A DNA stretch of 41,498 bases from Gammaproteobacteria bacterium (GTDB lineage: Bacteria; Pseudomonadota; Gammaproteobacteria; Steroidobacterales; Woeseiaceae). The notes below the pieces were generated by a model. That model had not been told where the DNA came from and searched no databases. It saw only the letters and a list, made by a program, of their open reading frames with translations. The DNA is taken from NCBI GenBank assembly GCA_009937525.1, contig JAACFE010000013.1, forward strand, positions 1-41,498. The letters run 5' to 3'. Below are positions 39,958 to 41,498 of the stretch, piece by piece (position 1 is the stretch's first letter; every line of letters starts with the position of its first letter). Made by a program: the position numbers and the translations under genes.

Positions 39958-40282
39958 GGGGGTGACCTGGTTTCGACGCGGGTCGCGAAACTCCGAGTGC
40001 ATGCCGAGGGACAGATGACCTCGTAAATCCAGCTGTAACACTCATAGTTGCCAACGACGACAACTACGCTTTAGCTGCTTAAAAACCAGCTCTAAGCCTT
40101 CCGCCCGGATCGTGCCTGTGCGTCCGGATCACGGGAGTCACCGACACTAAATCCTTACTGAACTGGCTGTGAGTTTTCCCTGCCCGTCGGGTAGCCCGCA
40201 GTGAGATTAAAGGCGGAATAAGCATGTAGATCTCGTAGCGTAGGACTTGCGGACGTGGGTTCGATTCCCACCACCTCCACCA
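39958..40282 (+). ncRNA. ssrA: Transfer-messenger RNA (tmRNA)
   Basis: 325 bases with encoded CCA. 5' GGGGGTG pairs with CACCTCC before the terminal ACCA; the tRNA-like ends (GACCTGGTTTCGACG and GGTTCGATTCCCACC) are typical. The tag frame at 40050-40082 encodes ANDDNYALAA and stops with TAA; E. coli has ANDENYALAA. Works with SmpB next door to free stalled ribosomes and mark the incomplete peptide for proteolysis. Confidence 0.98.
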
Positions 40283-40289
40283 ACACCGG

Positions 40290-40330
40290 GGACAGTGACC
40301 TTTTCAAAAAAGTCACTGTCCTTTTTTTTT
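40290..40330 (+). terminator. Rho-independent terminator of ssrA
   Basis: GGACAGTGAC (40290-40299) pairs perfectly with GTCACTGTCC (40312-40321) over a 12-base loop, followed by nine T. It may also serve the opposing regulator gene, whose stop is at 40332. Confidence 0.95.
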
Positions 40331-40331
40331 G

Positions 40332-41018
40332 TTAGTCGTAGGGGCGCAGCCGGGTGAGGCTGTGGATGAATACGACCCGGTCCTCGATCGAGATCACGCC
40401 CTCGTCCGCGAGACTGCGCAGCAGCCGGGAGAGCGTCTCTGGCTTGATCGACAGCCGCGATGCGATCACGTGACGCGGCAACTCCAGTCTTGCCGTCGCC
40501 TGGTCGCCATCGCGCGCGTCGGTAATGTGGTCGATGATATAGCTCGACAGCCGATGCCGGGCATTCTGTATGGAAAGGTTTTCGATTTCCCGAACGCGTG
40601 CGTGCAGGTGCCGTGAAAGATCGGCGAGCAGGCGCATGCACGCATCCCGGTTCGTTCGAAGCATGTCCAGGAAGGCCCGGTTCGGAATTTCGCAAAGCTT
40701 TGACTTATGCAACCCCTCGGCCGTGACCGGGAACTTGACCTCCTGCATGAAGGTCACCGCTTCACCAAATGTCCTCCCGGGGTTGACGACCTCGAGCGTC
40801 TTCTTGTCGCCGGTCGCGGAAATCAGGCTCAGTTCGATCAACCCCGTGTCGACATAGAAGAAGCTGTCAGCAGGATCGCCACGGTGAAACAGGACCTCGC
40901 CCTGATCCAGGTCTCTTACCTTCATTTCCGCCGCGAGCCGGTCAAAGTCCTCCTCTTCGAGGCCGGAAAACAGGTAATGACTGCGAACCGATTCGTAGAG
41001 GCCCGATTGTTTTTCCAT
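40332..41018 (-). CDS. Crp/Fnr-family regulator, DNR-like
   Basis: 228 residues from ATG at 41018 (the frame is open to 41159 upstream, but MEKQSGLYESVRSHYLFSGL fits the family start). The cyclic-nucleotide-binding-like domain spans about 15-125, a dimer helix 128-158, and the C-terminal helix-turn-helix 183-203 with PETLSR (Glu194, Ser197, Arg198), the residues that read TTGAT half-sites in FNR proteins. Only Cys109 and Cys127 are present, so it has no FNR-type 4Fe-4S cluster. Overall it looks like DNR, the haem-dependent nitric oxide sensor of pseudomonads; that role is an inference. No strong ribosome-binding site. Confidence 0.88.
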   Translation of the reverse strand: MEKQSGLYESVRSHYLFSGLEEEDFDRLAAEMKVRDLDQGEVLFHRGDPADSFFYVDTGLIELSLISATGDKKTLEVVNPGRTFGEAVTFMQEVKFPVTAEGLHKSKLCEIPNRAFLDMLRTNRDACMRLLADLSRHLHARVREIENLSIQNARHRLSSYIIDHITDARDGDQATARLELPRHVIASRLSIKPETLSRLLRSLADEGVISIEDRVVFIHSLTRLRPYD

Positions 41019-41124
41019 GGGAACAGAGTCTAGCACCAAGCTACTTTGCGTCACTGCGCTTGTCTCCGGGAATGAACCACATCGACCACGTTTCAGTAGT
41101 CTAGTCCTCATCCCGCCGTCGTCC

Positions 41125-41138
41125 TTGACCTGGATCAA
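41125..41138. promoter_or_regulatory. FNR/DNR-type binding site
   Basis: TTGAC-CTGG-ATCAA, one base from the TTGAT-N4-ATCAA consensus, in the 188-base gap between the regulator and the TonB receptor. A TACCGT at 41161-41166 would put the site near -41.5 of a start near 41173, the usual activating (class II) position for the receptor. It could also serve the divergent regulator gene. Confidence 0.75.
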
Positions 41139-41206
41139 GGCAGTTTGCTCGCCGGGCACCTACCGTTGGCCTTGTTTCCGCAGCAGTTTGCAACGAGGTC
41201 ATTGGA

Positions 41207-41498
41207 ATGCCGTACCGCGAACCGTCCAGCCCTATGTCACTCGCCCTGGTACTGGCCGCTATTGCGCCGCTGCTTTGCGCAGCTTCGTCAGCCGGCGACA
41301 CGGACTCAAGAACAGCATTCGTCGAAGAAGTCGTGGTCGTCGCCAACAAGCACGAGCGCAGCCGCCGGGAAATCACTGCCAATGTCAGCGTGTTTGACGA
41401 CGAAGACTTTCGTTTCGAACTCGCCAGTTCCATCGCCGAGGTATTTCGCTACGCGCCCGGTATCGACTACGAGTCGGATCGTTCCCGGTTCGGCGCCG
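41207..41498 (+). CDS. TonB-dependent outer membrane receptor, N-terminal part (cut by window edge)
   Basis: 97 codons visible. A signal peptide (about 1-29, hydrophobic core SLALVLAAIAPLLCAA) is followed by a TonB box-like EEVVVVA and the start of a plug domain: ANKHERSRREITANVSVF, LASSIAEVFRYAPGIDYE. GAGG lies ~9 bases before the ATG; an in-frame ATG at 41234 is also possible. Imports a large or scarce ligand (siderophore, haem, vitamin or similar); which one cannot be told from this part. Predicted FNR/DNR control is described at 41125-41138. Confidence 0.85.
   Translation, partial: MPYREPSSPMSLALVLAAIAPLLCAASSAGDTDSRTAFVEEVVVVANKHERSRREITANVSVFDDEDFRFELASSIAEVFRYAPGIDYESDRSRFGA

Follow-up and report, generated by a model that had tools for sequence, protein, structure and literature searches.

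A PhuR-like TonB-dependent receptor gene beside nirS in gammaproteobacteria without detected haem d1 synthesis enzymes: a possible module for haem d1 uptake

The analysed stretch of DNA, 41,498 nucleotides long and called the window below, appears to end in the front half of a DNR-type module. Related genomes contain a PhuR-like TonB-dependent receptor gene next to nirS, and family searches find no NirDLGH, NirJ, NirF or NirN in them. Whether such a module supplies external haem d1 or a late precursor of it to periplasmic NirS is, in our judgement, about evenly balanced. In the proposed course of events the cluster-free, DNR-like regulator would respond to nitric oxide (NO) or low oxygen, bind the box between the divergent genes and switch on an operon of receptor and nirS. 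The receptor would take haem d1, or one of its late precursors, that other denitrifiers have released and pass it through the outer membrane to the periplasm; there NirS could pick up the imported cofactor and mature. The more pointed reading, a TonB-dependent haem d1 transporter under DNR-type control in a NirS clade that gave up synthesis and scavenges d1 from other denitrifiers, is put forward tentatively and with a confidence just short of even.

A cluster-free, DNR-like Crp/Fnr protein had already been recognised in the preliminary description and this assignment holds. The regulator (Table 1) comprises a cNMP_binding and an HTH_Crp_2 domain, and as cysteines occur at positions 109 and 127 only, the four-cysteine cluster of FNR is absent. 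Its top match among solved structures is DNR of Pseudomonas aeruginosa (PDB 3dkw, E 3.8e-41; runner-up 4.7e-26). It is classed as DNR-type here since DNR is its closest solved relative within Crp/Fnr and N-terminal FeS cysteines are missing; both proteins also share the type of box. In the NCBIfam search it exceeded the cut-off of none of the regulator models (best FtrB with 90.8 of 211 bits, Fnr with 51.7 of 228), with no DNR model among the matches. Unlike DNR of P. aeruginosa this regulator adjoins a receptor–nirS operon, and its sensing of haem and NO is putative. The ATG was adopted as its start; an alternative GTG 141 bases upstream would carry the reading frame across the box. On the 3' side of the regulator follow a tmRNA gene and smpB. 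The tmRNA gene thus immediately precedes the module (window 39958-40331); tmRNA genes are a common integration site.

Table 1. Features located at the end of the window and the basis of their assignment
Feature	Position	Strand	Basis
Hairpin with T run between tmRNA and regulator	40283..40331		Judged a shared terminator by eye
DNR-like Crp/Fnr regulator, 228 aa, divergent from receptor	40332..41018	-	ORF, domains, PDB match
DNR/FNR-type box including its flanks, the core TTGACCTGGATCAA occupying 41125-41138	41121..41141		Pattern scan, conservation
TonB-dependent receptor gene of PhuR-like haem-receptor type, 5' part only, truncated where the contig ends	41207..41498	+	ORF, profile, identity

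The receptor gene runs for 97 codons from its ATG before the contig ends. This fragment reaches 80.6 bits against a profile of full-length relatives and is 74% identical across 61 residues to the receptor of locus L026 (Gammaproteobacteria bacterium bin.62), so that the TonB receptor proposed next to regulator and site is verified. The L026 locus represents the full module of the window type, with a regulator 83% identical to that of the window, the same 21 bases including the box, the receptor and nirS directly behind it; its contig stops about 0.2 kb beyond the regulator, at the flank that in the window bears the tmRNA gene. A paralogous locus is found on contig C164 of the window's own genome (G000). 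It contains a regulator 65% identical to that of the window, the box TTGATTCAGATCAA, a divergent receptor gene and, 4 bases 3' of the latter, nirS. No close match to the missing receptor part was detected on the other contigs of the assembly with the paralogous receptor as query. Because the single assembled NirS of G000 sits on C164, a nirS behind the window receptor, past the contig end, is something that we infer. The suggestion of a nitrogen-oxide or low-oxygen locus nevertheless gains support from the NirS on C164 in the paralogous arrangement, with which the genome does encode a denitrification protein, and from nirS behind the L026 receptor.

Beyond the regulator the C164 locus carries another box, then genes for a weak CoxB-like subunit, for subunit I of a haem-copper oxidase and for haem o synthase, and further on those for a cytochrome b/FeS protein, for a haemerythrin and for an NrfH-like cytochrome. 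Subunit I (L060:8017-10257) is ba3-like and carries glutamine at the position of the cross-linked tyrosine of ba3 oxidases. As this glutamine replaces the tyrosine the subunit is judged NO-reductase-like and is possibly an unusual NO reductase.

The near-consensus FNR-type site described beside the receptor is present as TTGACCTGGATCAA, the sole TTGAYN4RTCAA in the window (expected 0.06). Genome-wide, this one included, a search revealed 10 unique sites versus 1 for the reversed pattern. Seven of them lie inside long reading frames; the other three, namely TTGACCTGGATCAA and two at the paralogous C164 locus, are intergenic provided that regulator and receptors start at their ATGs. The 21 bases 41121-41141 are identical in L026 and show two changes at the C164 locus. 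With 75 bp between box centre and receptor ATG the spacing would allow class II activation. Among the NirS genomes of the own genome and 59 relatives the box accompanies the regulator. Seven of them match the regulator with E values of 1e-40 or lower, and each of the seven has the box (at most one mismatch in six, two in G030); among 15 scanned of the 17 NirS genomes without regulator, a box with a single mismatch or fewer was never observed, the best being that of G013 with two. Regulator and box were also found in G207 of the same genus and, from another family, in G354 and G419. The box scan covered 29 places, with G002 and G042 left out; in G021 it covered the receptor start only and the box was taken from reading the locus, and in L026 the start used sits 9-12 bases within the gene. 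In G021 (L123:13324-15057) a c-type cytochrome gene separates the box from the receptor; a gene that looks NorC-like by eye runs in the opposite direction.

Concerning its type, the receptor is nearest across plug and barrel to PhuR, the haem/haemoglobin receptor of P. aeruginosa (PDB 8the). Searched against PDB, the L026 receptor alone gave 264.7 bits with PhuR (next 83.7) and a profile of 26 rows gave 500.5 bits (next 163.7); this alignment (A1) did not include G002, G021, G042 and the window fragment. With the TonB-hemin model TIGR01785 (cut-off 316.85) the C164 copy scored 320.1 and the L026 copy 307.7 bits, and there was no match to the window fragment. The iron ligands of PhuR are presumably His124 and Tyr519, and at these positions the aligned receptor rows carry T, S or G, and N. 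As the PhuR ligands are not conserved the receptor is termed PhuR-like and is not filed as PhuR, from which it differs in these replaced ligands and in its linkage to nirS. The three homologues L212, L213 and L214, which are not linked to nirS and of which L214 belongs to the d1-positive genome G331, equally lack the PhuR ligands; therefore no substrate is read from these residues, and their use as proof of the substrate was dropped.

From the two cargoes proposed earlier for the benefit of denitrification enzymes, haem or copper, haem is favoured, PhuR being the best solved relative, and copper is not. Two receptor copies reached 45.2 and 52.1 bits with the TonB-copper model TIGR01778 (cut-off 472.45), scores on which a copper receptor of the OprC/NosA type was rejected, and OprC remained at or below 61 bits versus 500 for PhuR when the receptor profile was run against PDB. 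Copper receptors do occur beside nos genes, and the C164 locus encodes a weak CoxB-like subunit II together with a haem-copper subunit I. That the receptor takes up copper for this ba3-like oxidase or for other denitrification enzymes is still very improbable in view of these scores and of the many receptor–nirS stretches without such an oxidase.

Genes for haem d1 synthesis were searched in two genome samples, the own genome with 59 relatives (60) and 370 genomes of the class. A strong Cytochrom_D1 match was found in 24 of the 60 and PF17805 (NirDLGH) in none of the 60. In the class sample 44 genomes (counted from the listing) matched D1 with E values of 1e-140 or lower; PF17805 was present in 38 of these, with 2-5 D1 matches each, and absent from six with one D1 match each (G000, G207, G343, G349, G354 and G419). 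With G000 counted once this leads to 29 genomes, called d1-less here, and 38 comparison genomes. PF17805 is detected in 0/29 d1-less versus 38/38 comparison genomes, and NirJ above its cut-off in 0/29 versus 37/38 (the exception being G217); in G343, G354 and G419 the NirJ model picks up radical-SAM sequences below its cut-off, with at most 136 of 515 bits. No NirF- or NirN-level D1 protein was found by family search in any of the 29; the NirS genes of G007 and G036, which are split, and a weak extra match in G012 represent neither. In G354 and G419 five of nine D1 candidates were scored, and the D1 search of the class, the receptor search and the phylum search likewise scored part of the candidates in some genomes. 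The set searched was NirDLGH, NirJ, NirF and NirN, with NirE and NirC outside it, and judged by this set the d1-less hosts do not qualify as makers of haem d1. Completeness is at least 90% in 20 of the 29, absence in draft genomes being weaker evidence than in closed ones. Four of the 71 genomes in the NirJ and receptor searches (G337, G375, G409 and G416) fit neither group and were excluded from the counts. One of them, G416, has a solitary NirN-like D1 protein (L221) and neither a NirDLGH nor a NirJ match. G066, G114 and G131 are among genomes that contain NirDLGH and D1 proteins yet no NirS-level D1 match (best about 1e-119 to 1e-123).

The linked NirS, absent from the window itself, consists of cytochrome c and Cytochrom_D1 domains with the d1-site histidines, as expected of a member of this family. 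Two CxxCH motifs are found in all 29 d1-less rows and one in 29/30 comparison rows, G370 having two. The histidines at positions 182, 327 and 369 are kept in 29/29 d1-less and 30/30 comparison rows; the roles of the d1-site residues follow PMC8756737. In the NirS tree the d1-less rows group as a single clade with support 100/99, embedded within the comparison NirS. These 29 rows of tree and motif table stem from 28 of the 29 genomes, the split G007 being omitted, and from bin.62; the comparison rows cover 30 of the 38 genomes (omitted: G296, G198, G217, G331, G116, G292, G248 and G278), and G715 was included in addition. As to the origin of the extra cytochrome domain, NirC was considered and set aside: in nine loci, namely that of G715 and those of eight genomes that have d1 genes, the reading frames containing a CxxCH motif gave only weak matches, the best with 18.9 bits to the NirS of G370. 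Two cytochrome c domains ahead of the d1 domain are shared with the C1-C2-NirS fusion that PMC8756737 calls unique to Chloroflexi; the present NirS differs in being gammaproteobacterial, in having a receptor gene as its neighbour and in the lack of d1 synthesis genes.

The second CxxCH in all d1-less rows and the missing d1 enzymes might also mean that this NirS clade uses another tetrapyrrole supplied by the receptor, with the extra cytochrome domain as an adaptation. We regard this as distinctly unlikely, since the d1 site is intact (all histidines kept and a Trp498-like site in 28/29 rows) and the relatives' unbroken D1 domains reach 474-501 bits versus 471-537 in comparison NirS. Because the d1-less NirS form a single clade, the counts over 29 genomes are not independent trials; the absence of the d1 genes and the linkage to the receptor may go back to a single event, passed on by descent or by transfer of the whole unit.

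Linkage itself is almost general within this clade. The receptor gene lies beside nirS or less than 2 kb away in 28 of the 29 d1-less genomes, 27 of them with a long or full match in the receptor profile search; in G042 it is split into two contig pieces, one on the nirS contig at 1.7 kb from nirS. The profile found no receptor in G038, a genome that is 82% complete. In the 38 comparison genomes (E 1e-70, 15 candidates scored per genome) its matches were confined to G331 with 562 bits and G415 with 249 bits, which contig coordinates place 2.8 Mb and 0.7 Mb away from nirS. Direct reading of six comparison loci likewise revealed no receptor of this kind close to nirS. An Opr/alginate-export-like outer-membrane porin gene is frequent after nirS (5/5 tested, e.g. 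L119:9558-10778; others judged by length).

This distribution bears on the view that the receptor imports ordinary haem or iron for haem-rich denitrification enzymes, haem d1 being made internally by an unrecognised pathway. The PhuR type of similarity fits it, so do the two haem c motifs that NirS has here on top of d1, and enzymes yet unknown could make haem d1. We consider it unlikely, though to be taken seriously: the comparison NirS genomes lack a receptor of this kind at nirS although their needs are similar, and NirDLGH, NirJ, NirF and NirN would all have to be replaced.

The pairing could further be a historical accident in which receptor and nirS travel together with unrelated roles. 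A single NirS clade would agree with this, as would a quick receptor tree in which the 28 linked rows group together, with long branches and with two unlinked paralogues (G021 and G022) among them. However, the linkage persists in 7 families through at least three gene orders that vary by family (receptor before nirS, receptor after nirS, convergent). NirS and receptor are moreover under purifying selection in the seven pairs tested, as judged by rough pairwise pN/pS values well under 1 (four NirS pairs with 0.066-0.30, three receptor pairs with 0.13-0.32), some of the underlying dS values being close to saturation. An accident thus seems decidedly improbable to us.

In a phylum sample of 397 genomes a D1 match at 1e-60 occurred in 48, of which G000 and three single-match genomes were examined. 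G794 and G642 were ruled out as d1-less, their single D1 match being an undercount because d1 genes adjoin the D1 gene. In G715 NirS is the only D1 match, and the 20-kb nirS stretch (L218) contains no recognised d1 gene and no receptor of this kind, so that G715 may lack both. The same stretch also holds MoaA and a DNR-like regulator. G715, the receptor-free G038 and the non-conserved PhuR ligands, which leave haem as ligand unproven, count against haem d1 as cargo.

Returning to the uptake of haem d1, the host appears to be without the d1 enzymes searched, hence the receptor would most likely carry haem d1 or a late precursor. In known denitrifiers the final step of haem d1 formation and its insertion into NirS are periplasmic, according to PMC13168839 and PMC3694632. 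Since this last step is periplasmic, delivery through the outer membrane would put the cofactor where NirS needs it, without an inner-membrane step. PqqU (YncD) is a TonB receptor that delivers PQQ made by others to a periplasmic apoenzyme. If the proposal is right, both systems share the supply of a foreign-made cofactor to a periplasmic apoenzyme by a TonB receptor; they differ in the cofactor, and PqqU is distant in sequence (about 61 bits). No report of haem d1 uptake and cross-feeding was found in the literature searched, mostly without subscription journals.

The gene nirS is a standard marker of denitrification, and if hosts with a conserved nirS under selection are unable to make the cofactor, their nitrite-reducing capacity would depend on neighbours. 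If the proposed uptake is true, the presence of nirS would no longer imply that a bacterium reduces nitrite on its own; haem d1 would become a public good and join B12 and PQQ as shared cofactors. It would at the same time give a subfamily of haem receptors a directly testable substrate.
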